Assembly (NCBI GenBank): GCA_002707085.1
Contig: PALY01000001.1
Span: forward strand, 24,467 to 37,583
Length of the DNA: 13,117 bases
Source of the DNA: Deltaproteobacteria bacterium
GTDB taxonomy: Bacteria; Myxococcota_A; UBA796
Direction of reading: 5' to 3'
The translations under genes were made by a program, and so were the position numbers. The notes under the pieces are model-generated. The model saw nothing but the letters and a program-made list of their open reading frames with translations. It made no database searches and had not been told where the DNA came from. Below are positions 2-13,117 of this stretch, piece by piece. Position 1 is the stretch's first letter. Each line of letters starts with the position of its first letter.

Positions 2-91
2 AAAGCATGTGCTACATCACCGAAAGGCGGGTCCATGGGCTGGCTGTTGGCAATGGGTACGCTGCTGGGTTGGCGACGTCGGCAAAATTAG
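2..91 (+). CDS. C-terminal fragment of a surface protein with MYXO-CTERM-like sorting tail (5' end outside window)
   Basis: Frame 2 of the plus strand is open from the window edge to a TAG at 89-91 and encodes the last 29 residues of a protein. The visible tail has a Cys (ACATSP), a small Gly/Ser-rich linker (KGGS), a hydrophobic stretch (MGWLLAMGTLLGW) and a terminal RRRQN. Cys, then a transmembrane segment, then an Arg cluster at the extreme C-terminus is the layout of MYXO-CTERM sorting signals. These are known in Myxococcota exported proteins, where they are thought to be cleaved near the Cys and sorted to the cell surface. The rest of the protein is not in the window, so its function is unknown. 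Its stop overlaps the stop of the convergent kinase gene on the other strand, which supports this being a real gene end. An alternative reading is a chance open frame of 29 codons, but the tail architecture makes that less likely. Confidence 0.6.
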   Translation, partial: KACATSPKGGSMGWLLAMGTLLGWRRRQN

Positions 92-2472
92 ACTGGCCGA
101 TTGACCAAAGCCACAGTCAGCGCACTGTCTAAACCATCGGCCAACAGGCCCGGTCTTGGCTCCACCCCGCCGTCGATCACAGACAAAATGCGTGTACCCT
201 CCCAATGTAAGAGAGGGAAGGTGTCACGATGAGCACACACCGCCTGGGCCAACGATCGCGCTTGATCTCGGTCCCCAAGCGACATCGCCCCTCGGGCCAA
301 CTGTAGATGAATTCCCAATGCAAGAGACTGCTCAACGTGTTTGGCCCAATTCAGCGCCGACTCAGAAGCTCGCTGGTATGAAATCGCGTCGCCTATCACT
401 GCCGCAGCGCGCGCCCATGTGGCAAAAAGAAGGGCATCTTCCGGTGTAAAACCACGAGACTCCGCACCACTGAGCATCGGTAAAATTCTATCGATGGCAC
501 TGGCTGCAGCGGATCTGGAGTTCGGCTGGCGATCTAAAGCAACCCAGGCGCGTAAACCATGACATAGTCGCCGTTGATCATCCCGACCGGCTGCATGCGC
601 CAAAGCCGAAGCGTCAGCCAATCGGCGACCTGCTTCTTCCAGCAACCCTACCCGAATCAAAACATTCGCCAGAGCAATGGTCGCATCCGCCTTCAATCCT
701 CGATCCGACATGACTTGGGACAACTCAACCGCACGCCGGACCGCAACCAAACCTTGATCTAGATGGCCACCCAATAAAGCATCCTCAGCCTTTTCGATTC
801 CACGACGAACTTCTTTTTCCATCCATTCAGACGCACTCTCGCCATCCGAAGTCGAATGAATGTTCATTTGGTTTTCATTCACTCGTTCCTGCAATCCATC
901 CGGATCAATCAACTGCTGGACAATCGCGGGAAAAAACAAAGAACCCATCAATCGAAAACGCCCACCCGCATCCACGACTAGGCCCCTCGAAATCAAATCC
1001 GGCACAATCTCGTCTGCCGGTACGTTGGCAATGTCTTCAAGGGTTCCTATATCCATGGGTTTGGCTGAGAAAGCAATGGCTCCTAGGACTTCCATCTGAT
1101 CCAAGTCCAATCCACCGACAAAACGATCTACATGTGAATTCAAGTTTTCAATGTCAGGTAGTTTGAACACATCATCAACCGTGTTCTCGATCAAAATTGC
1201 CGCCAACAACCGAGGTAAACCGCCTGTCCATTCATGAAGCGTTGCTGCGATATCGGCCGGATTGCTCACTTTCGGGGCCACCGAAACCAACGACCGTCGA
1301 ACATCAGCGATCCCCAAGGGTTTGAGTACAATTTCCACCTTTCCGACATGAGCAGGTACATCCAAGTCATGAGGCGAGACAACCAACAATGGTTCCCCCG
1401 CATCCAGTCTCTGCCGAACAGCATCCCATGCACCCTCTTCCAAAACCTCTACGACAGGAATGCCTCTGCGCTGAGCTCCTTGGCGCAGCAAATCTCCCAC
1501 CCAAGCCTTTCGGGTTCCACTGGGACCAACAGGACGCACACATAGCGCTTCACCCTCAGAGGCACGCTCTAAACATTCCGCCACCTTTGTCACCGTCGTC
1601 CGCGTGCCAGCCAGTACCGTACCGCCATCATCCTCTGAAGACAGAAGTGCGCGGACACTGCGTGCGTCTCTGGGTCTATTCTGAGGGTTGGCCGCCAACA
1701 GTCTCATGATGACGCCTTCAAGATCCGCGGGGACACCCGGGTCAACCCGTGATGGCGGTAGTGGCGTCTGCCCGTATTGGCGATCTAAACCTTCAAAGGG
1801 ACGGGTCTGAGTCAACAAGAAATACAAAGTAGCACCCAAACCAAACAAATCCGTTCGGGGACCAACAGCATCTCCATTGAGTTGCTCCGGGGCTGCATAA
1901 CTGAGCGTCCCTACGACGATACCCACAGCGGTCTTTTCCAAAGCTCCTGGGTCCTTCACCACTCCAAAGTCACCCAATACAACTCGCCCATCATCTCCAA
2001 TAAGCACATTGCTCGGCTTTACATCTCGATGAACCATTCCGGTCCGATGGATGTGTTCAAGCGCATCACACAAAATACGCCCTATCGAACGACAACGAGC
2101 ATATCTCTCCGCTGATGGGCGCTTATGAAGTTTGGCCGTATGCACTCGAAGATCCGTTCCCTCTACATGCTCCATCACAAGAAAAGGACGACCCAAGTGT
2201 TCACCCGAGTCAATGTACTTGGTCACACCGGGGTGGTTCAGTTTCTTCAGACTGTCTATTTCACGTAGGAATCGACTCACGAGAGGGCCGTGAGAATGAT
2301 TCATCCACTTCACCGCCGCAACCTGATTTTCAGGCCCACGACAAAGATAAACTGCCGCAACAGCCCCCCTTCCTATCAGCCGATCAGGCGACCAAGCACC
2401 GATCAATCCGGGACAATCCGTATCGCCCGAATGGGCCTGTTCTTGCAAATCAGGAAAGCGGTCGATCACCAC
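88..2472 (-). CDS. Ser/Thr protein kinase with degenerate STAND ATPase module and short helical C-terminus
   Basis: This 794-residue protein begins with a Hanks-type kinase at about 28-277. The Gly loop is GRGAVAAV (34-41), with the third Gly replaced by Ala. Also visible are the ATP-binding K55 in AAVK, the helix-C candidate E71, HRD 148-150 with N155, DFG 168-170 and APE 194-196, so it should be catalytically active. The next region (about 290-440) aligns in position with the ATPases of the neighbouring kinases but has lost the key motifs. Walker A reads GPSGTRKA (316-323, Gly to Arg and Ser/Thr to Ala), and SP (366-367) stands where the Walker B Asp pair should be. GxP survives as GLP (418-420). 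Residues from about 545 to 770 are Ala/Leu-rich helices, TPR-like and much shorter than in the paralogs. No membrane segment is seen. The gene is translationally coupled to the kinase upstream. Two GTG codons compete for the start: 2472, or 2469 with better spacing from GGAG and a classic GTGA overlap. Confidence 0.9.
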   Translation of the reverse strand: MVIDRFPDLQEQAHSGDTDCPGLIGAWSPDRLIGRGAVAAVYLCRGPENQVAAVKWMNHSHGPLVSRFLREIDSLKKLNHPGVTKYIDSGEHLGRPFLVMEHVEGTDLRVHTAKLHKRPSAERYARCRSIGRILCDALEHIHRTGMVHRDVKPSNVLIGDDGRVVLGDFGVVKDPGALEKTAVGIVVGTLSYAAPEQLNGDAVGPRTDLFGLGATLYFLLTQTRPFEGLDRQYGQTPLPPSRVDPGVPADLEGVIMRLLAANPQNRPRDARSVRALLSSEDDGGTVLAGTRTTVTKVAECLERASEGEALCVRPVGPSGTRKAWVGDLLRQGAQRRGIPVVEVLEEGAWDAVRQRLDAGEPLLVVSPHDLDVPAHVGKVEIVLKPLGIADVRRSLVSVAPKVSNPADIAATLHEWTGGLPRLLAAILIENTVDDVFKLPDIENLNSHVDRFVGGLDLDQMEVLGAIAFSAKPMDIGTLEDIANVPADEIVPDLISRGLVVDAGGRFRLMGSLFFPAIVQQLIDPDGLQERVNENQMNIHSTSDGESASEWMEKEVRRGIEKAEDALLGGHLDQGLVAVRRAVELSQVMSDRGLKADATIALANVLIRVGLLEEAGRRLADASALAHAAGRDDQRRLCHGLRAWVALDRQPNSRSAAASAIDRILPMLSGAESRGFTPEDALLFATWARAAAVIGDAISYQRASESALNWAKHVEQSLALGIHLQLARGAMSLGDRDQARSLAQAVCAHRDTFPLLHWEGTRILSVIDGGVEPRPGLLADGLDSALTVALVNRPV

Positions 2473-5400
2473 TCAACTCCGGTACCGTCATCTTCTTCAG
2501 GTGTAGCCAACAGCGCACGAATTCGGGGGCGTTCTCGGAAAGTATTCAACAACTCGGCTGGCACCGATAGACACAAAGCCTGGGCGAGCATCTGTGCCTC
2601 ATCTCGGGCGATTCTTGCTTCGTCTTCTTCTGCCAACACGGCCACAATGGACCGAGCAACCAAACTCCATAAACGAAACCCTCGCATACCCGCAGCACTT
2701 GAAGCCTCTCGAGCCAATCGTAGGGCATGTTCGTTTTCTTCCAGAGCTTGGTATCCGAGAGCCAACACGACCAGAACCTGTGTTCGTCGAGGAACAGCCA
2801 CACCTTCAAGCATCCCTTTCGCTTCATCCAAGGTCTTCTTGCCCAGCTCATCTTGGCCCGCAATCACAAATGCGCGCCCCTTCATGGCCGAAAGCAATGA
2901 TGCATACATTTCTGGATCGCCCTCTCCACACGACAGAAGACCCGAATCAATGTGTTTGATGCTGGAAATGGGATCACCCATTCTCAGAGCCAATCGACCA
3001 CACAAAAACCTCGTGGCGACCATGTCAACACCGGCTTGCTCTTCTCCATACGCTAGCGCACGGGTCAAAGAGCTTCCCGCTGCATTCAAATCGCCCGCAT
3101 CCATCTGCGCCATGGAAATGACCCGCAAAGCGGCAGCTGAACCAACATGAAAGTCGACATCCGCAGCCATAGTGAGCGCTTCTTTACCCCTACGAAGACC
3201 CTCTCCAATCTCACCCTGCCACAACAAAAGTTCAGCGAGATTGCACAACACAACACAATGGGCGCGCTTGTTTCTCAACCGATTGAAAATGCCTTCGGCT
3301 TCCGCCAAGCCACTGGTGGCTGCAGCAAGTTGACCGCGCTCTGCCTGAATCGCTGTCAGGACAACCAACAGTCCCGCACGACTGTCTTCCAAATCAGGAC
3401 CCGTGGCCGACAACAAACCTTGATTGGCCAGCTGTTCACACGTTTCCAAATCTCCGCGTTCCCACGCAAACATTGCTTGCCGACGCAAACCCTCAATGAC
3501 CGTCTTTCGATCGCCTCGAATACGTGCGGCTTCGACCACTTCTTCGATCATGCCCCAACCCACTTCTGGCCGTCCCAAGCGCTTCAGCGCAATGCCACGG
3601 TCCATCACCGCTTCAGCCGCCAACTCTCGCTCACCCAAAGCCGCAGCCACACCATGAAGCGAGGCCAATACTTGTTCGGTATGCTCCCACGAGCCGCGGT
3701 TGTATGCCACATAGGCACGCACCCGAAGAAGGGCCAAGCGTGCGCGCTTGAACTCGACATCTGTGAGATCGCCGGATGCAGATTCTTGAACCACCAACGC
3801 ACGCTCAGACAGCTCCCACGCCTCTCCAGCCAAAGCCCGCTGCCAAAGGCGTAGTGCTGACATGGACAGATATCGAAATGCCTTTCCGCTCTCTCCAGCG
3901 CGCAAATAATGCTCACCGATGGCTTCACTGATCACCGGATTGTCTCGATGTCGGAATTCAAGAGCAACCGCCAAACGGCGATGAAGGGTGGCCCGCCAAT
4001 CTGGATCCAAATCCCGATAGGCCACGTCGCTCACCTTTCGATGAACAAAATCGATGAAGACCTGGCCGCTCAATCGATGCTCCACAACAACGCCCGACCC
4101 AACCAAAGAGTCGATTGAGTCAAGCGCCTCCTCCTCTTCAAGGTCCAGGACATCCAGAATCACATCCAGATCGGCCTTTCCACCCATCACTGACAGCGTG
4201 TCGACCACTTCACGGTGAGCCACGGGGAGGGGAGCCAGCCTGTTTCTGACAACCTGACGAACACCCGGTGGGATGGCCAGTTCACCATCTGCGAGGTCCT
4301 TGGCGTTCACCGTCAACCGGTACCCTCCATGCTCTTTTTCAACAATCACTCCTTGTTGAATCAATGAACGCAAGAATTCCACAACGAAAAACGGGTTGCC
4401 CTCAGTTTCGGAATGTAGGATTTTGGCCAACTGCGCTGCGGCTCGCCCCTCTCCCAACATATCCGCAACCAAAGTGACAACCTCTGGCTCACTTAGGGCA
4501 TGCAAGGTGACATGGGTTGGATGTACAGACAGGGATGAACCATCTCGTATGCCATCCAGGATTTTAAACCGACGATCTGAGCGGGCAGCGATAATCAACA
4601 GCAACGGTTGTTTGTCACGACTGATCAAACTCCGAACCAAATAGCCAAGCAAGTCCAGCAAAGGGCCAGGCGTGTGATGAAAATCATCTATGGCGATGAT
4701 GCGTGGCCCGTTTTCCAGCAATTTGGACAGTGCATCTCGCATCCCGTCATACAGTTGGTAGCGAGCGTCTCCTGCCAACTGGCCACCTTCTTTTACAAAC
4801 GCGACCAGCGTATTTTGTAGATCGGAAGAAACATCATCTCCGAGAGCGTCACCCAACTGACTCGCAATATCGATCAAAGATTCAAAAGCACTGGCTCCTG
4901 AACCCATGGTGGAGTGGTGAACCGGGATCCCCATCAAACGGGCATGATGCGTAGCAGCACGCAACAATCGGGTCTTTCCTGAACCCTCATCTCCCTCTAC
5001 CAACACCACTCCGCCTTCCGACCGAGTGAGGACGCCGACGGCATCGCGCAAAGCCTCCACAGAGGAAGTACGACCCACCAGCGAAGGCTCCCACCCATCC
5101 CCCTGATGCGCAGGACCGTGGGCATCAAGATCGATTTGTTCCAACTGGTACAAAATCTCCTGCGCCGATTGAAACCGATTCCGGGGAGCTTTTTGCAGCA
5201 AACGCATGCAGATATTGTTGAGTTGAGGCGGTGTACCAGGAACCAGGTCTTCAGGAGGAACTGGACGTTGATCTCGATGCAACTCCAAATACCCAGCAAT
5301 GTCTTTGGCCACAAACGGGCGACGACCCGTCAGCATGGTGTAGAGAATCACGCCAAGCGAATACAGATCCGAGCGATTGTCGATGGCACGCCCCATGATC

Positions 5401-6011
5401 TGTTCTGGACTTGCATAGGCCCAAGTTCCAACCAAAGTCGTCGACAGCTGCACATCTGCTTCTGGATCCAACTCTTTGACAATGCCAAAGTCGGTGAGCT
5501 TGCACAGACCTTCTGTGCTGATCAATACATTGCTTGGCTTCAGGTCTCGATGAATCAAACCGCGCTGATGAATGTAGGCCAATGCACGAGACAGGTCGAT
5601 CAACACTTCTTCAACACGCGCCCAGCGCTTTGAAAGATCCGTTCGAGGAAAATTCCGAATCTCTTGGTAAAGATCGGTACCCTCTACACACTCCATGGCG
5701 ATGTATGGATGACCATGAATGTCTCCGTAGCTTTCTACACGGATGACGTTGGGGTGCTTCAAACGCGCCAAAGCACGAAACTCTCGCCGGAATCGCGCCA
5801 ACCCTGTACGAAAACGATTGACCTTTAAAATCTTGAGCGCAACAGCGAGTCCACCGGGATCACGGCCCAACAAAACATGGGACATTCCACCCTTACCGAG
5901 TGGGCGTTCGTACCGATACGGACCGATCGTATCACCGGGAGATAAAGTAATTCCTCCCATGACAATATCGGTCGGAAGCGGATCAACCGCGGACTGGTCC
6001 TGCTTGGTCAT
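2466..6011 (-). CDS. Ser/Thr protein kinase fused to canonical STAND/AAA_16 ATPase and TPR repeats (PknK-like)
   Basis: This 1181-residue protein has three parts. The kinase (about 31-290) shows the Gly loop GKGGMSHV (39-46), K60 in VALK, helix-C candidate E77, HRD 154-156 with K158 and N161, DFG 174-176 and SPE 201-203. Its activation segment is rich in Ser/Thr (190-196), as expected for autophosphorylated RD kinases. An AAA_16/STAND ATPase (about 308-560) follows, opening with LVGR. It has Walker A GDEGSGKT (340-347), Walker B IIAIDDFHH (438-446), an ARSD strand (476-479) and GNPFF (538-542). After a winged-helix-like linker (RNRLAPLP, 589-596), residues about 690-1130 are consecutive TPR-like helical pairs. 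The protein ends with an acidic tail. It is the only one of the four paralogs with a fully canonical ATPase site. No membrane segment is seen. It is the first gene of a coupled pair with the 88-2472 kinase. The ATG at 6011 has no obvious Shine-Dalgarno; the next in-frame ATG (5960) has none either. Confidence 0.93.
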   Translation of the reverse strand: MTKQDQSAVDPLPTDIVMGGITLSPGDTIGPYRYERPLGKGGMSHVLLGRDPGGLAVALKILKVNRFRTGLARFRREFRALARLKHPNVIRVESYGDIHGHPYIAMECVEGTDLYQEIRNFPRTDLSKRWARVEEVLIDLSRALAYIHQRGLIHRDLKPSNVLISTEGLCKLTDFGIVKELDPEADVQLSTTLVGTWAYASPEQIMGRAIDNRSDLYSLGVILYTMLTGRRPFVAKDIAGYLELHRDQRPVPPEDLVPGTPPQLNNICMRLLQKAPRNRFQSAQEILYQLEQIDLDAHGPAHQGDGWEPSLVGRTSSVEALRDAVGVLTRSEGGVVLVEGDEGSGKTRLLRAATHHARLMGIPVHHSTMGSGASAFESLIDIASQLGDALGDDVSSDLQNTLVAFVKEGGQLAGDARYQLYDGMRDALSKLLENGPRIIAIDDFHHTPGPLLDLLGYLVRSLISRDKQPLLLIIAARSDRRFKILDGIRDGSSLSVHPTHVTLHALSEPEVVTLVADMLGEGRAAAQLAKILHSETEGNPFFVVEFLRSLIQQGVIVEKEHGGYRLTVNAKDLADGELAIPPGVRQVVRNRLAPLPVAHREVVDTLSVMGGKADLDVILDVLDLEEEEALDSIDSLVGSGVVVEHRLSGQVFIDFVHRKVSDVAYRDLDPDWRATLHRRLAVALEFRHRDNPVISEAIGEHYLRAGESGKAFRYLSMSALRLWQRALAGEAWELSERALVVQESASGDLTDVEFKRARLALLRVRAYVAYNRGSWEHTEQVLASLHGVAAALGERELAAEAVMDRGIALKRLGRPEVGWGMIEEVVEAARIRGDRKTVIEGLRRQAMFAWERGDLETCEQLANQGLLSATGPDLEDSRAGLLVVLTAIQAERGQLAAATSGLAEAEGIFNRLRNKRAHCVVLCNLAELLLWQGEIGEGLRRGKEALTMAADVDFHVGSAAALRVISMAQMDAGDLNAAGSSLTRALAYGEEQAGVDMVATRFLCGRLALRMGDPISSIKHIDSGLLSCGEGDPEMYASLLSAMKGRAFVIAGQDELGKKTLDEAKGMLEGVAVPRRTQVLVVLALGYQALEENEHALRLAREASSAAGMRGFRLWSLVARSIVAVLAEEDEARIARDEAQMLAQALCLSVPAELLNTFRERPRIRALLATPEEDDGTGVEW
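2477..2480 (-). promoter_or_regulatory. Shine-Dalgarno GGAG for the downstream kinase gene, inside the end of the upstream gene
   Basis: On the minus strand GGAG lies 4 nt before the GTG at 2472 and 7 nt before the GTG at 2469. The upstream gene's TGA is at 2468-2466, so its stop overlaps the start region of the next gene. The spacing favours the second GTG. The arrangement indicates translational coupling of the two kinases. Confidence 0.6.
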
Positions 6012-6045
6012 CGTACCGGACTAACCGAATGTGGTCATATGGGCG

Positions 6046-6059
6046 TATGATGAATCATA
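6046..6059. promoter_or_regulatory. Palindrome TATGAT-GA-ATCATA: candidate overlapping -10 elements or operator
   Basis: The two 6-nt arms are perfect inverted repeats separated by GA. On each strand the arm reads TATGAT, five of six matches to the sigma-70 -10 consensus TATAAT. On the plus strand it would place a start of transcription about 17 nt before the lipoprotein ATG, leaving just enough leader for its Shine-Dalgarno. On the minus strand it lies 42 nt before the kinase ATG. It could equally be a dimeric regulator site. The lack of recognisable -35 boxes keeps confidence low. Confidence 0.3.
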
Positions 6060-6062
6060 GTT

Positions 6063-6069
6063 GAGGAGG
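6063..6069 (+). promoter_or_regulatory. Strong Shine-Dalgarno GAGGAGG of the lipoprotein gene
   Basis: GAGGAGG sits 5 nt before the ATG at 6075. It fixes that start, since the same frame is closed by a TGA at 6051-6053 with no other usable start codon between. Confidence 0.75.
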
Positions 6070-6074
6070 CATAC

Positions 6075-7214
6075 ATGCACATTGTGTTGTTGGCACCATG
6101 GTTCACCCTGGCAGGATGTGAGCCGATTATGGCCAAAACTCCCGGTTTGGGTGAAGATTCTGGCTTGAGTATCGACTCCGGATCCGAAGCGGACGCGGAT
6201 GCAGATGCAGATGCAGATGCAGATGCAGATGCGGACGCAGATGCGGATGCGGATGCGGACGCGGACGCAGATGCGGACGCAGATGCCGACCCCAGCCCTT
6301 GTCCAAATTTGGTGGTCAGCACCACTTTCATGACATGGGATGGCACCGTGCTTGGTGAAGCCGTCACCCAAGATGTGACTGTATCCAACAACTGTACAGG
6401 GGCTGAGAACTTAAGCGTGGATATGGCATGGCCCGACAGCGGCCACGCCTCCTTCGCCGGAGAGTTATTTTCGGGTGAATTGGCACCAGGTGAACGTCAA
6501 TCCATCGACATCACATTTACCGCAGAGGATTACAGCACAGCGACAAGCAGCATCGGCATCACGACCAACGACACAGATCGTCCCAGTGTAACCATTACCC
6601 TCGTGGCTTCCGCAACAGTCGATGGAGACGGAGACGGGCGAGCAGCCATCGCTGCTGGAGGCACAGACTGTGACGACACAGATTCTGATATCCATCCTGG
6701 CGCCACAGAAATTTGGTACGACGGCGTCGACCAAGACTGTTCTGGGGGTTCGGACAACGATGCGGACGGGGACGGCCACGACCACCCAGACTACGGTGGC
6801 GACGATTGTGATGAGACAGAGAGCGCTCGGTACCCAGGCGCAGAAGAAATCTGTGATGAAATCGACAACGACTGTGACGATGAAATCGATGAAGGTCTTA
6901 CTTTCGACTGGCTGTTTACAGACATCGATGGTGATGGTTTTGGGGATTCATCCACATCGACATACTCCTGTGATCCCGACGATGGCATCTTGATTGGCGG
7001 TGATTGCGACGATGAACACCCCTTCGTTCACCCGGATGCAGAAGAAATCTGTGATGACGAAATGGACAACGATTGCGATGGAGATGAAGACACCGACGAC
7101 GACGACTGTGAAGAGGAAGTCGATGACGACGACGATGACGACGACACAGGTGCGTCCGGTGGTGAGAGTGGATCCGATGATGACGAAGACACGGGAATGT
7201 CCAGTGGTCGTTAA
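6075..7214 (+). CDS. Acidic lipoprotein with Ala-Asp repeat, ASH/HYDIN-like domain and MopE-like metal-binding repeats
   Basis: This 379-residue predicted surface lipoprotein opens with a very short signal sequence ending in lipobox LAGC (lipidated Cys15). A 34-residue Ala-Asp repeat (39-72) follows as a probable extended spacer. Residues about 76-182 resemble an ASH/HYDIN-type beta-sandwich (choice-of-anchor D family). Supporting signs are VTVSNNC, a LAPGE turn (136-140) and TTND near the end (163-166). Three Asp/Cys-rich repeats of the putative metal-binding type found in MopE-like proteins come next (about 183-224, 228-274, 283-345), with DGDGDG, DCDD, PGAEEICD and DNDCD signatures. These are expected to bind Ca2+ or another divalent metal, although the ligand is not proven. 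The first repeat has IWYDGVDQDC and lacks the middle Cys. The tail (about 340-379) is mostly Asp/Glu with TG-rich ends. The gene is divergent from one kinase gene and convergent with another. A role in signalling is only suggested by position. Confidence 0.85.
   Translation: MHIVLLAPWFTLAGCEPIMAKTPGLGEDSGLSIDSGSEADADADADADADADADADADADADADADADADADPSPCPNLVVSTTFMTWDGTVLGEAVTQDVTVSNNCTGAENLSVDMAWPDSGHASFAGELFSGELAPGERQSIDITFTAEDYSTATSSIGITTNDTDRPSVTITLVASATVDGDGDGRAAIAAGGTDCDDTDSDIHPGATEIWYDGVDQDCSGGSDNDADGDGHDHPDYGGDDCDETESARYPGAEEICDEIDNDCDDEIDEGLTFDWLFTDIDGDGFGDSSTSTYSCDPDDGILIGGDCDDEHPFVHPDAEEICDDEMDNDCDGDEDTDDDDCEEEVDDDDDDDDTGASGGESGSDDDEDTGMSSGR
6189..6290 (+). repeat. Hexanucleotide (GCNGAY) tandem array, 17 units, encoding (Ala-Asp)17
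   Basis: The array is 102 nt of 6-nt units, each one Ala codon plus one Asp codon. Five consecutive units (6201-6230) are identical GCAGAT; the rest mix GCG/GCA/GCC with GAT/GAC. Because the unit is 6 nt, gain or loss of copies stays in frame and would change only the length of the spacer between the lipid anchor and the folded domains. The mixture of synonymous codons shows selection for the protein repeat and partly interrupts the array, which should reduce slippage outside the perfect block. Confidence 0.9.
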
Positions 7215-10200
7215 CTGGACATTGGGTCCAACCAACGACTCTTGAACCCCTCTGGGCTTCCCAGTTCGTGATCTAAAGCGTTCAATATTTTATGCGCTTC
7301 GTCTGCTGCTTCTCTCTCGATTCCCAACGATTCAGCCAACAAGCCGGCCTCCATTTTCAACAAACGAAAACGGCTATCCGACACTCTTTCTATGATCTTG
7401 CGGACCACCTCTTCTGCTCTTTCATCTGAAGCATTCACCAAGGTATAGGCTGCATCCAGTAAATGACGTGTTCCTGCCCAGGGTAAAATTGCTACAGGGC
7501 GATCCACCACTTGGCGGGCAAGAGCAACCGCCACCGTTGGGTTTCTTTTCAAAACCACGCGACTCTTGATCGCCAACAAACCGCCCATGGGATCAGAAAC
7601 CCCCACCATTTCTCTTGTGTTTGCTGGTGGCATGTTCGGGAGCAACTTTTGGGCTTCTTCGAAAGCGCCCAAACCAACAAAAACACGAACAGCGGGCAAA
7701 ATGCTGGCAATCGATCCTATCGTTTCTATTGCGCCTTGCGCCCGAGCCATTGTCGCACTGTCTTGGGCGAGGGTGCGCGCATCGTGTGGCACTCCAAGAT
7801 CAAACAAAGCTTGAGAAGCCATACCCAATGCTGTCGTACACAATCGAAGCCGCGGAATGTTGCGCGCAACACCATCTGCTTCCAATGCATACTCCCTCGC
7901 TTTCTCCAAATATCCCTGGGCGTACAGGAATTCAGCAAGCCACAATATTGCATCAGGAAGTAGATTTTGGTTCGCCTGATCTCTCATTCGAAAAATGGCA
8001 TTTTCCAAGCCGTCTTGGCCTTCCCCATACCGACCTTTCACCAAAGAAATCAGACTCAAGCCAGCAAGAGCACGAGCATGAACGGAGCCTTTACCCATCT
8101 CTTTGCCGAGCTCCAACAGTTCTCCCCACAGTCGACGGGCGCCATCCACATCCCCTCTAGACAGGCGTGCGCCCGCAAGGGCTTCCGCTGCTTCTGCCCA
8201 CATGGGGTCACCTTGAGGAAGTTTTCCAAGCGCTTGTTCAAGACCACTCGACGCTGCCACCACTTCACCGATGGCCACCCGAGAGAGTCCCATACCAGCC
8301 TGAGCGCGAGCAATACTCTCTGCACTTCCTTCTTCTCGGGCAACAGACAACGCTTGTTTCCAGGCTTCTAAGGCCTTTCGGGGCTGACTCATTCGATGGT
8401 ACAGGCTCCCCCACAACGTATAGAGACGTCGTTGACAACGGATTTGAACCTTTTCCTCCATGTTTGTTTCTGCAACCTGACGGGCGCGTTCAGCCTTCTC
8501 CAACAGCTTGGCAGCCTGTTTGGACTTCCCCGCCCTCAAGGTGGTTTCGGCCGCCACCAAAAGCATGGGGTAGGCCTCTCCCACTTGACCACCACTCAAA
8601 AGATGGCTGGCGATGACTTCAGCAAAAGTTCCTGATCGCCGTCGACTTCTCCGCCGTAAGGAAGCAGCCACAGACTGATGTAGAACCGTCCTCTTGTTCT
8701 TGGAAATCAACTGGTAGGCGACATCACGATTGCGATCTCCCCTCAAAGAAACAATGTCGTGGATTCCTTCACTCCGCTCTCTGATCAGCTGAGCTTGAGA
8801 TAATTCATGAAGAGCGCGTCCCAAGATGGTGGGGTCCAACGCCGCTATCTCTCCCACAAGCTCCAAGGTTGCCTCCATGTCGAGAACAACCAAAACATCG
8901 AATAAATGGCGTGCATCTGGACCCAAACCCTCGATCCGAGCAGCCTCTTTACGACGAATGCGATCGGGCAATGGAAGCGGATCATTGCGAAGCGCATCCA
9001 TCGTACAACCAGAACGGAGTCCGCCATCGGGGGTCGGCACAAGCCAACCCGTTTGAACCAATGCAGATATCTGCTCCAACACAGCACCCGGCATTCCAGC
9101 CAATTCTCCTGTCAGTCGGCGCCCAAGGGCTGCAGCCACAGCTCCACCCACTCCCTGGTCTCGAACAAGAGCGATAATTGCGGATCGTTCCAGGCCACCC
9201 AGCACCAACTGATCTGTGGTCAAGCCAGTATCCGCACCTGTACATAAACCCTGGGCTGTTCCGGTGGTGGACTCCACGGAACCCACTACAAAAATCGGCA
9301 TTCCCTCTATGGCCACTCGTTGCCGAAGCATGCTCGTAAGACCAGAAATCATCTCTGAGTCCATCTGGTCCATGTCATCGATAACAATCAGTGTGGGCTG
9401 CAATGTGGCAGCGGTACCAAGACCCAACCAGCTTGCTGCACCGACGGCTCGGGCAGGCAACTGCCGGGCGAGCTGCCCAACCAACTCGGTTCGAGCCCCA
9501 CTCGCAGCTGCTACCGCCAATTCCCGTGACTGGGCTTGTTCGACAAAGGCCTCAAGGAGGGCTGTTCGACCTGAACCCAGCTCACCCACGACAATGGCCA
9601 AGCCACCCGCACCACGTTCGACCTCACTCAAACAATCTCGAAACCACTCCACTTCACGTTCTCTTCCATGAAGAACCTTAGAGGGCGAATCACCATCTCC
9701 ATCGAGTTTCGCCAACACTTGACGGGCAGAGACAGGACGTTGATTCGCCTCCTTCTTCAACATCTGCATACAAATACGCTCTAAATGCGGAGGCACATTG
9801 CTGTCGTACTCAGAAGGCGGCCTGGGAGTCTCTGTGATGTGTCGCGCCAAATAACCAGCAATATTGTCGGCCTCTATCGGACGACGAAGGGCCAACAATA
9901 CATACAGAACAGCACCCAAACTATACAAATCTGATGCAGGGGTGACCGGATCTCCGGTGATCTGTTCAGGAGACATGAACGCCACGGTTCCAACCAACTT
10001 TCCAGCCACAGTGAGTTGGGTCGTAAACGCACCCGAAGCCTTGACCACACCAAAATCCGTAATCTTGGCTTCACCCGACGAGGTCACAAGAACATTGCTG
10101 GGCTTTAGATCTCGATGAATCAACCCTTCATCATGGATCATTGCCAACCCCTCACACAGGCCCCGTAGAATCCGTTCTGCTTGAGCAAACTGGTCGACGG

Positions 10201-10561
10201 GAGGGTTCGCAGTCCACCGATCCACAAGTGAACCCAAATCAGATCCGTCCACATACTCCATCGCTATCCAGGGGTAGTCCCCCGCCATTCCAGCCTCGTA
10301 CACCTGCACAACAGATGGATGTCGCAGGTCCCGAAGCGCAAGAAATTCTCGTTCAAATCGTTTCACTTCATCTGTTTGGGCCTTCCCAGGATGCAGAATC
10401 TTCACGGCACAAACGCCACCTGTGTCATCCACAGCCCGATACACAGTGGCCATGCCACCAACGCCCAGCAACTCGTGCAGGACATAGGGACCAACCTGAT
10501 CACCGGGGGTCGGTGGTGGTGAAACAATCGTCATTGGGCGAAGTGTAGCGGAACATCCCAA
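7211..10561 (-). CDS. Ser/Thr protein kinase fused to variant STAND ATPase (Walker A Lys to Arg) and TPR repeats
   Basis: This protein is 1116 residues if it starts at TTG 10561 (numbering used here) or 1107 from ATG 10534. The kinase (about 25-285) has GVGGMATV (33-40), K54 in CAVK, helix-C candidate E72, HRD 149-151 with K153 and N156, DFG 169-171 and SPE 197-199, all intact. The ATPase (about 298-510) opens with LHGRE. Walker A is GELGSGRT (326-333), with Arg332 where Lys is expected. Walker B is LIVIDDMDQMD (391-401), and GMP (489-491) is the GxP motif, without the FF seen in two paralogs. A linker (about 525-640) with an Arg-rich stretch follows, then TPR-like helices (about 655-1080). 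No membrane segment is seen. The gene lies 37 nt after the preceding kinase gene, probably in the same operon, and its stop shares TTAA with the convergent lipoprotein gene. TTG has AAGAAGG 10 nt upstream; ATG 10534 has no Shine-Dalgarno, so the start is unsettled. Confidence 0.9.
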   Translation of the reverse strand: MGCSATLRPMTIVSPPPTPGDQVGPYVLHELLGVGGMATVYRAVDDTGGVCAVKILHPGKAQTDEVKRFEREFLALRDLRHPSVVQVYEAGMAGDYPWIAMEYVDGSDLGSLVDRWTANPPVDQFAQAERILRGLCEGLAMIHDEGLIHRDLKPSNVLVTSSGEAKITDFGVVKASGAFTTQLTVAGKLVGTVAFMSPEQITGDPVTPASDLYSLGAVLYVLLALRRPIEADNIAGYLARHITETPRPPSEYDSNVPPHLERICMQMLKKEANQRPVSARQVLAKLDGDGDSPSKVLHGREREVEWFRDCLSEVERGAGGLAIVVGELGSGRTALLEAFVEQAQSRELAVAAASGARTELVGQLARQLPARAVGAASWLGLGTAATLQPTLIVIDDMDQMDSEMISGLTSMLRQRVAIEGMPIFVVGSVESTTGTAQGLCTGADTGLTTDQLVLGGLERSAIIALVRDQGVGGAVAAALGRRLTGELAGMPGAVLEQISALVQTGWLVPTPDGGLRSGCTMDALRNDPLPLPDRIRRKEAARIEGLGPDARHLFDVLVVLDMEATLELVGEIAALDPTILGRALHELSQAQLIRERSEGIHDIVSLRGDRNRDVAYQLISKNKRTVLHQSVAASLRRRSRRRSGTFAEVIASHLLSGGQVGEAYPMLLVAAETTLRAGKSKQAAKLLEKAERARQVAETNMEEKVQIRCQRRLYTLWGSLYHRMSQPRKALEAWKQALSVAREEGSAESIARAQAGMGLSRVAIGEVVAASSGLEQALGKLPQGDPMWAEAAEALAGARLSRGDVDGARRLWGELLELGKEMGKGSVHARALAGLSLISLVKGRYGEGQDGLENAIFRMRDQANQNLLPDAILWLAEFLYAQGYLEKAREYALEADGVARNIPRLRLCTTALGMASQALFDLGVPHDARTLAQDSATMARAQGAIETIGSIASILPAVRVFVGLGAFEEAQKLLPNMPPANTREMVGVSDPMGGLLAIKSRVVLKRNPTVAVALARQVVDRPVAILPWAGTRHLLDAAYTLVNASDERAEEVVRKIIERVSDSRFRLLKMEAGLLAESLGIEREAADEAHKILNALDHELGSPEGFKSRWLDPMSS

Positions 10562-10598
10562 CCGCCGTGGACCTTCTTTGTCAGCATCCCGTCTGGGA
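10562..10598 (-). promoter_or_regulatory. Short intergenic gap with Shine-Dalgarno-like AAGAAGG (10572-10578)
   Basis: This 37-nt gap separates two co-directional kinase genes. On the minus strand AAGAAGG ends 10 nt before the TTG at 10561, a long but usable spacing. There is no room for a normal promoter and only a weak 4-5 bp hairpin (10586-10599) without a T-tract, so read-through from the upstream gene is expected. Confidence 0.4.
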
Positions 10599-13117
10599 CT
10601 ACACTAAACTCACTTGCGGCTTGACCCCATGAATGGTCATAAAAGCCAACGAGTCCTCACGACTTAGGTTGGCTGCAAGGGAGCGTGTCAGTGCTTCAGC
10701 AACCCGTTGATGACGAGAAATAATCACTTCATCCTCCGTACAGTGCATGATCAATCGCCGCGCGCGCATGGCGTAGTGCCGGTATCCACAAGAGTCCGCC
10801 AAGCGCAGAGCCTCTTCAGCCAAGACCATCGCATCTGCATGGTTGCCCAACAATAGATAGGCGCGAGCCAGGCTCAGTTTGGCGCGTGCGCTTTGACCGG
10901 GCCAAGACCGCCCTTGTGACTGAGTCGACCGTTCAATGTCCTCATACGCCAAATCAATTTTTCCGCGCATCGCGTGTAAACGCGACCACCACGCATACAC
11001 AACCGGAGCAAAACCCTCTGTGTCGTAGTCAGCCAACAAATCTGTAGCCTCGGTCAACATGCGTTCGACCGCATCCAAATCTCCATTCACAAGTCCAGTC
11101 CGACACGCAACAACCAAACTGGAGAGTTCTTCTTCTTTGTTGCCCAACTCCCGATGGATCTTCAAACTCGCCAAAGCATTGTCCATCGCTTCACCGTACC
11201 GACCAATATCGGTCAACATGATGGTTCGATACCGCAACCCCAGTCCGATTCCAGATAAATACCGAACCTCTCGAGCCTGAGCGACAGTCTTATCCGACAA
11301 CTGTATTCCTTTACGGAAATTGCCCGTGAAATGGTACAGCTCGATCAAATTGATCCGGGCCACTGTCAGCCTGTCCATCAGACCATGCTTTTCGCTGACA
11401 GTGATCGCTTGTTCAAGTTTACGGCGTGCTTCTGCACTCTGCCCTTTACACAAGGCCAACAAGCCCAAAGCTCCATAGCCCCAAGCCAATCTGGGTTCAT
11501 CGTTGAACTGCTCGGAACGGGCCAGGCCTTCCACCCACCAATCACGAGCAGACTCCAAATCACCTTGCGCCCAAGCCACACCACCCATTTCATACAGGGG
11601 CAAAATCTCTAAACGACGATGACCACTCTCTCTCGCGATTTCAATCGCTTTCTTCAGTTGTTCGTCTGCAGTGTCCAAATTCCGTACACGTCGTGCTTGG
11701 CATCCGATTTCAATCGCAACTCCACACTGCAGCTTTGCCTCTTCCAGTTCGTCTGCAAGGGTCTTTACCCTTTGTAGTTCTGCTGTAGATTCCGACCATC
11801 GACCCAAGTGGTACAACGCTCGAGCGCGGCTCAAGAGTAGGTTGGCCAACCGTCGATCCGCCTCATCAAGCGTCATGTATTCTCGTGCATCAACCTCTAA
11901 GCTCAATGCGCGATCAAGGTATTCCAGCCCCTCTGCGACAAAGGTTCGCTGCATCAGCTTTTCCGCCGCCTGGACCAGATAGGGGTACGCCTTGGTTGGT
12001 ACATTCCCTTGCTCAAAATGATAGGCGAGCGCTTCTACAATGAACGGCACTCGACGACGATGGATTCGTTCCAGAGTCAGGCCAATACGTCGATGAAACA
12101 TCCTGCGTTCATCAACCGATGTCTCCTCAAGTACGACATCCTTCAAACGGTTTTGCGCCAGTTCAAACTTCTCCGTTTCTCCCATATGACGCTCGCGAAC
12201 CAAACCCGCATTCAGCAAGGTCTCCATACACACCATGACCCGGTCATGATCCATCGCAGCAGCCATGCACAACAGTGATGTGTCGAGTTCTTGGCGCGCC
12301 ACAGCCAAAACACCCACAATGGTGCGAGCATCATCACTCAAGGGAGCAAGTCGTTCTTTGATGGCCTCACGGATCGACTTGGGCACCGGCAATGAAGATT
12401 CAGTGATGGCCTTGGAATCCAAAGAGATGCGACCGCGTGCGCCATCATCACCTTGAACAATGACCCCTTCTTCAATCAGTCCTCGGATCATTTCACCAAT
12501 AAAGAATGGGACCCCTTCTCCTTCCCGCTGTAGGCGTGTCGCCAAGTGGCGTACTCGAGGCTCGTCATGAACCAAGGTGAGCAGCAATTCTTCGACAGCA
12601 CCTACACTTAAAGGTCCAAGACGAATGTACTCGGGCGTGATTCCTGTGGACACATTGTCAAAGGCTTCGTGCAGGCCGTTTCCACCACTGTTCGGCTCCT
12701 GTGTAGCAACGATGAGCAATGGAAAGTCCGCTTCGCCGATCAGGTTTCGTACCAAATATTCGGTCATCTCAACCGTTCCGCGATCAGCCCGATCAATGTC
12801 ATCGAGTACCAACAGATGTGGGCCATTTTCGACAAGCAGATTCTTGAAAGCGGCGAACACAGTCCATTTTTCCAGCGTACGGTCTTCCATCGTACGTTCA
12901 CCGAAAGCGATTTCCAGAACGGTGGGGCCGGTCACATCATCATCGAGTAAGGCCCGATACGAATCACGGTACCCTTCAAATGCGCGCTGATCCGTCGCTG
13001 TACTGCGCCCTACCGTGGTGGTAATCCCATACCGAGAAGCCTGTTCCATCGCTTCTGCAGCCAGGGCAGACCGACCCATACCGTAGGTCGCCTCCAGCAC
13101 CAAAAGACCACCTTTTC
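10599..13117 (-). CDS. STAND ATPase-TPR protein, probably C-terminal part of another Ser/Thr kinase (5' end outside window)
   Basis: The frame is open at the right edge and gives 838 whole codons, starting KGGLLVLEA just before Walker A; the TTG at 13103 is internal and not the start. Numbering from that TTG as residue 1, Walker A is ATYGMGRS (5-12), with Arg11 for the usual Lys and Ala for the first Gly. Walker B is HLLVLDDIDRAD (96-107), and the GxP motif is GVPFF (197-201). A linker containing KERLAPL (249-255) matches the RNRLAPLP of the 2466-6011 protein. Residues about 360-790 are TPR-like helical repeats with frequent W/Y-x2-G and A-x4-Y/A patterns. By homology to the three complete neighbours, a kinase domain is expected upstream, beyond the window, but this is not seen. 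The protein ends in VSLV and TAG. It probably forms an operon with the kinase gene 37 nt downstream. Confidence 0.85.
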   Translation of the reverse strand, partial: KGGLLVLEATYGMGRSALAAEAMEQASRYGITTTVGRSTATDQRAFEGYRDSYRALLDDDVTGPTVLEIAFGERTMEDRTLEKWTVFAAFKNLLVENGPHLLVLDDIDRADRGTVEMTEYLVRNLIGEADFPLLIVATQEPNSGGNGLHEAFDNVSTGITPEYIRLGPLSVGAVEELLLTLVHDEPRVRHLATRLQREGEGVPFFIGEMIRGLIEEGVIVQGDDGARGRISLDSKAITESSLPVPKSIREAIKERLAPLSDDARTIVGVLAVARQELDTSLLCMAAAMDHDRVMVCMETLLNAGLVRERHMGETEKFELAQNRLKDVVLEETSVDERRMFHRRIGLTLERIHRRRVPFIVEALAYHFEQGNVPTKAYPYLVQAAEKLMQRTFVAEGLEYLDRALSLEVDAREYMTLDEADRRLANLLLSRARALYHLGRWSESTAELQRVKTLADELEEAKLQCGVAIEIGCQARRVRNLDTADEQLKKAIEIARESGHRRLEILPLYEMGGVAWAQGDLESARDWWVEGLARSEQFNDEPRLAWGYGALGLLALCKGQSAEARRKLEQAITVSEKHGLMDRLTVARINLIELYHFTGNFRKGIQLSDKTVAQAREVRYLSGIGLGLRYRTIMLTDIGRYGEAMDNALASLKIHRELGNKEEELSSLVVACRTGLVNGDLDAVERMLTEATDLLADYDTEGFAPVVYAWWSRLHAMRGKIDLAYEDIERSTQSQGRSWPGQSARAKLSLARAYLLLGNHADAMVLAEEALRLADSCGYRHYAMRARRLIMHCTEDEVIISRHQRVAEALTRSLAANLSREDSLAFMTIHGVKPQVSLV

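Follow-up and report, generated by a model that had tools for sequence, protein, structure and literature searches.

STAND switches are usually understood to bind and hydrolyse ATP through the lysine of their P-loop. One account describes STAND proteins as assembling when ATP is bound and being reset by hydrolysis, and counts the kinase PknK among them (PMC4381067); AfsR and MalT are described elsewhere as activated by ATP binding and not by hydrolysis (PMC10936776). Here we analyse a stretch of 13,117 nucleotides (henceforth the window) from Deltaproteobacteria bacterium (Myxococcota_A; UBA796), which spans positions 24467-37583 of contig PALY01000001.1 in the incomplete (72%) assembly GCA_002707085.1 and carries a minus-strand run of four paralogous genes, from first to last D, C, B and A. 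Their products are predicted to be Ser/Thr kinase-AAA_16/winged-helix-tetratricopeptide repeat (TPR) proteins of the PknK/STAND type. We found that their nucleotide-binding domains (NBDs) differ in a way that is largely fixed by gene in the lineage of the window: B has a canonical P-loop, C and D have Arg in place of the P-loop Lys next to an intact Walker B motif, and A lacks the Walker B unit altogether. These variants suggest specialised switch roles more than simple decay.

PknK of Mycobacterium tuberculosis, named as a STAND kinase in PMC4381067, likewise runs from a kinase through a STAND-type ATPase module to a sensor, and a 'Kinase + MalT-like' architecture is recorded for that species in PMC1262709. 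Compared at the level of architecture, the present locus differs from PknK in having four tandem, diverged paralogues accompanied by a PP2C phosphatase gene, two P-loops with a fixed Arg and one Walker B deletion. MalT and AfsR share with A-D the order NBD, winged helix and TPR, and their profiles match the TPR region of D weakly, far under the cut-offs; their effector is a DNA-binding domain, whereas here it is a kinase. Canonical members of the MalT/AfsR type generally keep the P-loop Lys. AAA_16 adenylate cyclases, SARP and LuxR-type regulators, which served as outgroups, have an NBD with GxGKT, DD and GNPFF that aligns to that of B, and Lys was present in all 25 of those sampled, in contrast to the Arg variants C and D. 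Kinase and PP2C genes are neighbours both here and in Stp1/IreP-type systems with Hanks kinases; here one phosphatase gene accompanies four STAND-type kinases, and no PASTA domain was among the Pfam matches. A literature search of open-licence papers found no published account of this cluster.

Across about 60 genomes, natural Lys/Arg exchanges are held by gene within lineages while the Walker B acids are largely kept. The locus thereby offers a set of naturally occurring mutants with which to ask whether a STAND kinase is driven by the binding of ATP or by its turnover, and whether paralogues run on a common clock, in a conserved module of four kinases and a phosphatase that can be tracked through an uncultured lineage.

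Domain architecture of the four proteins

All four proteins have the same domain order, i.e., kinase, AAA_16-type NBD, winged-helix region and TPR, as assigned by Pfam and, for the winged helix and the TPR of A, from AlphaFold models of A and B. Pfam detected an N-terminal Ser/Thr kinase in each protein (E between 4e-39 and 2e-47), AAA_16 in B (E 9.5e-16), D (3.7e-11) and C (6.6e-9), and TPRs in B, C and D; helical repeats are present in the models of A and B. In these models (mean predicted local distance difference test, pLDDT, of 89.4 for A and 86.5 for B) the kinase, NBD, winged helix and TPR helices follow one another in secondary-structure order, and this order, together with homology, places a helical domain and a winged helix after the NBD. 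A preliminary description of the window had proposed a shared domain order, which holds for all four proteins; the kinase of D, however, could not have been seen in the window, because the gene runs past its edge to position 14063 and only residues from about 317 onwards lie inside. The open reading frames (ORFs) of B and A, with the GTG start of A as listed, overlap by 7 bases.

A STAND P-loop NBD of the AAA+ type, with Walker A and Walker B, is found in B and, with Arg replacing Lys, in C and D. In the model of B, the NBD strands span residues 334-340, 364-368, 437-442 (Walker B), 470-477 and 499-503, with helices intervening. Translation confirmed the motifs that had been read earlier in these three proteins, namely GSGKT, IDD and GNPFF in B, GSGRT, IDD and GMP in C, and GMGRS, LDD and GVPFF in D (positions in Table 1).

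P-loop and Walker B states across orthologues

To place these motifs in context, we compared homologues of each gene, taking the best 120 of 726 for B, the best 120 of 146 for D and all 30 for C, from searches in each of which scoring covered the approximately 8000 candidates with the most words in common. The closest relatives, which on the basis of identity we take to form a genus-level clade (for B, the window's genus-mates G001 and G002 are at about 65%), carry one P-loop state per gene. Specifically, Lys was found in 26 of the 27 close relatives of B that could be read (P0006-P0034, at least 57% identity; one Arg, and two of the 29 without the P-loop region), while Arg was found in all 26 close relatives of C (P0245-P0270, at least 51%) and in all 30 of D (P0126-P0155, at least 56%). 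The Walker B acids DD were kept in 28/29, 26/26 and 30/30 of these sequences, respectively, or 84 of 85 together. Outgroup AAA_16 proteins, by comparison, had Lys in 25 of 25 cases in the list for B and in 25 of 27 in the analysis of D and C (one Arg, one unread), and given this background the fixation of Arg in C and D is probably more than chance would produce. As Walker B is kept, C and D of the window's clade are predicted to be constrained Lys-to-Arg variants and not decaying copies, and the P-loop state of each gene appears to be held by selection in this lineage.

We then considered the order as a whole (ORFs with a hidden Markov model (HMM) ratio below 1.3, second copies from overlapping loci and motif cells with gaps were left out of all counts, as was C of genome G016). 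The last position of Walker A was Lys in 27 and Arg in 29 of 56 B orthologues; Arg in 41, Lys in 7, His in 1 and Thr in 1 of 50 C orthologues; and Lys in 40, Arg in 13, Cys in 1 and Thr in 1 of 55 D orthologues. DD was found in 54/56, 39/48 and 33/55 of B, C and D, respectively. Among the matches listed, 53 of the 66 more distant relatives of B (P0035-P0100) carried Lys and 10 carried Arg, and the far relatives of D had Lys in 40 of 62. The expectation that each gene would carry the same variant in orthologous clusters is therefore borne out within the genus-level clade but not across the order. Similarly, the GxP motif is kept in all four proteins of the window, as had been stated, but its Pro is retained in only 41/57 B, 44/48 C and 54/56 D orthologues and is missing from most copies of A in family f2.

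When clusters were read as a unit, the 44 in which B, C and D were all readable showed the patterns (in the order B-C-D) RRK in 14, KRK in 14, RRR in 5 and KRR, that of the window, in 3 (G000, the genome of the window, G002 and G032). Addition of the C genes of G007, G027 and G042 completes the pattern RRR in these genomes as well, so that Lys is absent altogether from 8 of 47 clusters. The idea of one member acting as the hydrolysing switch is thus not conserved: Lys moves between genes across the order, and Lys-free clusters occur at the frequency expected by chance (see below).

The shortened nucleotide-binding domain of A

Gene A departs furthest from the canonical site. Its P-loop remnant has a Lys at the Lys position, but the Gly that should precede this residue and the Ser/Thr that should follow it are lost. 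In a profile-profile alignment of 25 A with 22 B orthologues, nothing in A paired with the Walker B strand of B or with the surrounding 75-90 or so residues, and the Walker B unit was absent from 25/25 of the aligned A orthologues. The model of A agrees with this, as its NBD strands are limited to residues 310-315, 340-342, 363-365 and 377-382, with no Walker B strand. The GPSGTRKA and GLP motifs noted earlier in A are indeed present, but the SP that had been taken to replace DD does not lie at the Walker B site; according to the profile alignment and the models it sits on the counterpart of the sensor-1 strand of B. Pfam did not detect AAA_16 in A of the window, and found it in 20/25 A orthologues at E values up to 1 (best 1.3e-7).

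The Lys position of the P-loop was occupied by Arg in 18, Gln in 7, Lys in 6 and Leu in 1 of the 32 A orthologues read, with a canonical P-loop (GxxxxGK[ST]) in a single one (GRPGTGKS in G014). By contrast, the first Gly of the P-loop was invariant in 25/25 orthologues and the Trp that follows it nearly so, and in the A-specific motif PLxxADxRR the Pro, the Ala and both Arg were invariant in all 25 aligned. Mean pairwise identity was 0.40 for the NBD of A (25 rows), 0.37 for that of B (22 rows) and 0.50 for the kinase of A. Judged from these sequences, A is a pseudo-NTPase, a derived relative predicted to have no working STAND NTPase, whose shortened NBD is probably under constraint and not freely drifting. 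The graded decay of the ATPase site that had been proposed for the four neighbours consequently does not describe C and D of this clade, where Walker B is intact and Lys versus Arg in B, C and D forms no gradient; for A it applies in a stronger form.

Kinase domains and the associated phosphatase

The set of kinase Lys, HRD, Asn and DFG-Asp was complete in 189 of 193 proteins (A 31/33, B 56/56, C 49/50, D 53/54), and three of the four incomplete sets were alignment gaps. The Lys of HRDxK was kept in every copy read of A (33), B (56) and C (50), and its change to Thr or Ser, a second gene-specific feature and one absent from the preliminary description, was specific to D (Thr 47, Ser 5, Asn 1 and Lys 1 in 54 copies). 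HRDxS recurs in 2 of the 16 further kinases encoded by the window's genome in which the motif could be read, meaning that HRDxT/S alone is no proof of a dead kinase in D. In a tree of the kinase domains we counted 4 changes of gene label against a minimum of 3; two long rows (B_G008 and D_G005) had no kinase, for which contig ends were taken as the cause.

Directly before D, in divergent orientation, lies a gene for a Stp1-like PP2C phosphatase, which scores 223.6 bits against the Stp1_PP2C_phos profile, slightly under its cut-off of 230. The gene is found in the same divergent position in 52 of the 57 genomes with D, and the remaining five are contig edges.

Distribution and gene order

The order was sampled by 63 genomes, with matches to the C-terminal tail of B in 61 and to that of D in 61 (E 1e-20), although some of these are paralogues. 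Profile-based assignment in the 60 genomes with stretches (all except G019, G039 and G062) identified D in 57 genomes, B in as many, C in 50 and A in 33, and a later addition brought C in six more genomes and A in one more. A single-sequence search with the tail of A matched 34/63 genomes of the order and 0/21 in family f4; this search misses some copies, and G042 carries A at a contig end. Outside the order, the tail of A had no match in 8 genomes from other orders of the class, and among 282 genomes of the phylum (three candidates scored per genome, E 1e-30) the tail of D was found in 47, all within this order. The module thus seems to be confined to a single uncultured order of myxococcotans; public records label some homologues of these proteins as Myxococcota.

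With contig breaks included, D and C were adjacent in 43/49 cases, C and B in 27/48 and B and A in 23/32. Two ABC-transporter gene sets (DUF4340, ABC_transp_aux and ABC2 permease) flank the module in the host genome (L012:5456-9988 and L011:1669-5992), and in 20 stretches such a set lies beside PP2C and D, with DUF4340 and mostly also ABC_transp_aux, a permease or an ATPase.

Possible roles of the P-loop variants

The explanation we favour, with about equal parts of confidence and doubt, is an order-specific module of four soluble PknK-like Ser/Thr kinases and a divergent PP2C in which the state of the P-loop tunes each switch. By analogy with STAND biology, the TPR of each protein would bind a ligand or partner and open the NBD-winged helix unit, and ATP binding would assemble the opened unit and so bring the kinases together. 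The gathered kinases would phosphorylate in trans, and PP2C would reverse this. Sites with Lys (B in the window) would bind and hydrolyse ATP and hence reset, those with Arg and an intact Walker B (C and D) would most likely bind ATP with slow turnover, and A, having no Walker B unit, would be a nucleotide-independent partner or scaffold kinase. The type of P-loop would therefore set the lifetime of the ATP-bound state, and A would have dropped nucleotide control. Exchange of the Walker A Lys for Arg, of which RecA K72R is an example (PMC5663514), is described as often, though not always, blocking hydrolysis while sparing binding (PMC6254361).

Several observations weigh against this explanation. 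The Arg sites may be empty, as Msh2-Msh6 mutants with the same exchange are described as defective in ATP binding (PMC6254361). In the wider order the Walker B motif of D is variable, with DD in 33 of 55 orthologues (see above) and, among the matches listed, in just 21 of 62 far relatives. Judged by the presence of Lys, a resetting subunit is not required, since it is missing from the 8 Lys-free clusters. Finally, the STAND assignment draws on Pfam, on homology and on the order of secondary-structure elements, because in Foldseek searches of the PDB the 50 matches listed for each of the two models were all kinase chains; a profile of the NBD-winged helix region of B gave only weak P-loop matches in the PDB (Apaf-1, E 0.91).

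We regard it as rather unlikely that the genes encode four independent, homomeric sensor kinases in one operon, whose nucleotide dependence decays gene by gene under selection on the kinase and TPR only. Such a process would fit the number of changes between Lys and other residues, with minima on the trees (from which sequences of 600 amino acids or fewer were left out) of 8 for B, 5-6 for D and 4 for C. It would also fit the alterations of the Walker B motif of D in several lineages (e.g., YE, HE and AD in family f5) and the C genes of genus g8, where the P-loop of G050 reads GDEGEGLG and a pattern search found none in G009 and G056 (all three were left uncounted). However, DD is intact beside Arg in all 29 Arg-bearing B orthologues of the order, as it is in every close relative of C and D, and the shortened NBD of A is conserved.

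It is unlikely, in our view, that Arg is simply equivalent to Lys in this NBD family and that the differences carry no meaning. B does alternate between the two residues across the order while nearly always keeping DD, and it differs even between sister genomes of the window's genus (Arg in G001, Lys in G000 and G002). Yet a neutral alternation should give mixtures within each gene at this divergence, whereas Arg is fixed in C and D of the clade in which B has Lys, and Lys is nearly universal in the AAA_16 outgroup.

We consider unlikely to the same degree the proposal that the four proteins co-assemble into a hetero-oligomer in which ATP is turned over by one or more subunits in every lineage, the others binding it only or serving as adaptors. 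The co-linear run, the overlap of B and A and the neighbouring phosphatase speak for it, and so does the restriction of Lys to B among the B, C and D genes of the genus-level clade. Moreover, five contig sizes (13583, 15344, 15765, 82049 and 89264) are common to the match lists of B and D, each with Lys in B and Arg in D, which suggests that the two genes share a contig. Against co-assembly of this kind, the clusters without any Lys include that of the same-genus genome G001, and both B and D have Lys in 22 of 52 pairs. Complementarity of Lys among B, C and D gave no signal, with 5 Lys-free clusters observed and 4.2 expected under independent assortment, and hence no sign of genes compensating for one another (only 5 tree-independent pairs were available for this comparison). 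A was not found in f4, and in genus g8 the kinase genes are spread over different contigs, with C of G009, G050 and G056 on contigs other than those of B and D; such separation is mild evidence that the complex is not an obligate one. In the window's genus, a hetero-oligomer in which a single subunit hydrolyses ATP is thus possible, and the motif patterns suggest that it is not conserved across the order. A more specific form of this proposal, which we find quite improbable, is a hetero-STAND platform whose single hydrolysing position has moved between subunits (D in RRK lineages, B in the KRR genus of the window), the other positions being Arg P-loops that would bind ATP without resetting and A an added adaptor kinase.

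An anti-phage or conflict system is very improbable indeed and was dropped as a candidate: the four kinases do match PADLOC kinase models, but the matches listed cover the kinase region and nothing further supports this role, and the module is syntenic, present in most genomes of the order and placed beside ABC-transporter genes.

Features of the locus and neighbouring genes

Table 1. Genes and motifs of the kinase-STAND locus, in window coordinates (NBD, nucleotide-binding domain; TPR, tetratricopeptide repeat; ORF, open reading frame; aa, amino acids).
Feature	Position	Strand	Basis
Gene A, kinase, shortened NBD, winged helix and short TPR, 794 aa	88-2472	-	ORF, Pfam, model
A GLP	within 1213-1224	-	translation
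A-specific motif PLxxADxRRS	1291-1320	-	translation, alignment of 25 orthologues
A strand LLVVSP, counterpart of sensor-1 strand of B	1372-1389	-	profile alignment, models
A P-loop remnant GPSGTRKA	1504-1527	-	translation
Gene B, kinase-AAA_16-winged helix-TPR, 1181 aa	2466-6011	-	ORF, Pfam, model
B GNPFF	4386-4400	-	translation
B Walker B IDDFH	4677-4691	-	translation
B P-loop GDEGSGKT, canonical	4971-4994	-	translation
ORF with MopE-type metal-binding motif and DA-rich repeat, antisense between C and B	6075-7214	+	
Gene C, kinase-AAA_16-winged helix-TPR, 1116 aa from TTG start	7211-10561	-	ORF, Pfam
C GMP	9089-9097	-	translation
C Walker B IDD	9368-9382	-	translation
C P-loop GELGSGRT, Arg at Lys position	9563-9586	-	translation
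Gene D, first of the run, kinase-AAA_16-winged helix-TPR, 1154 aa	10599-14063 (window holds to 13117)	-	ORF, Pfam
D GVPFF	12501-12515	-	translation
D Walker B LDDID	12792-12806	-	translation
D P-loop ATYGMGRS, Arg at Walker A Lys position	13068-13091	-	translation
D catalytic loop HRDVTPAN	13614-13637 (outside window)		translation
Stp1-like PP2C phosphatase gene, divergent, directly before D	14078-14893 (outside window; L012:4644-5459)		

The ORF with a MopE-type motif splits the kinase run; it contains a hexanucleotide (DA) repeat at 6189-6286, and the start of its product looks lipobox-like by eye. Since C and B adjoin directly in both same-genus genomes (G001 and G002), we place this ORF outside the module, and it looks like a recent insertion.

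After A, on the opposite strand, lies a gene for a trypsin-like protease with a DA-rich tail (window positions -1075 to 91; L011:9392-10558). A relative of this protease directly follows B in eight genomes of f4, the family in which A was not found, so that the presence or absence of A falls exactly between the protease and B.

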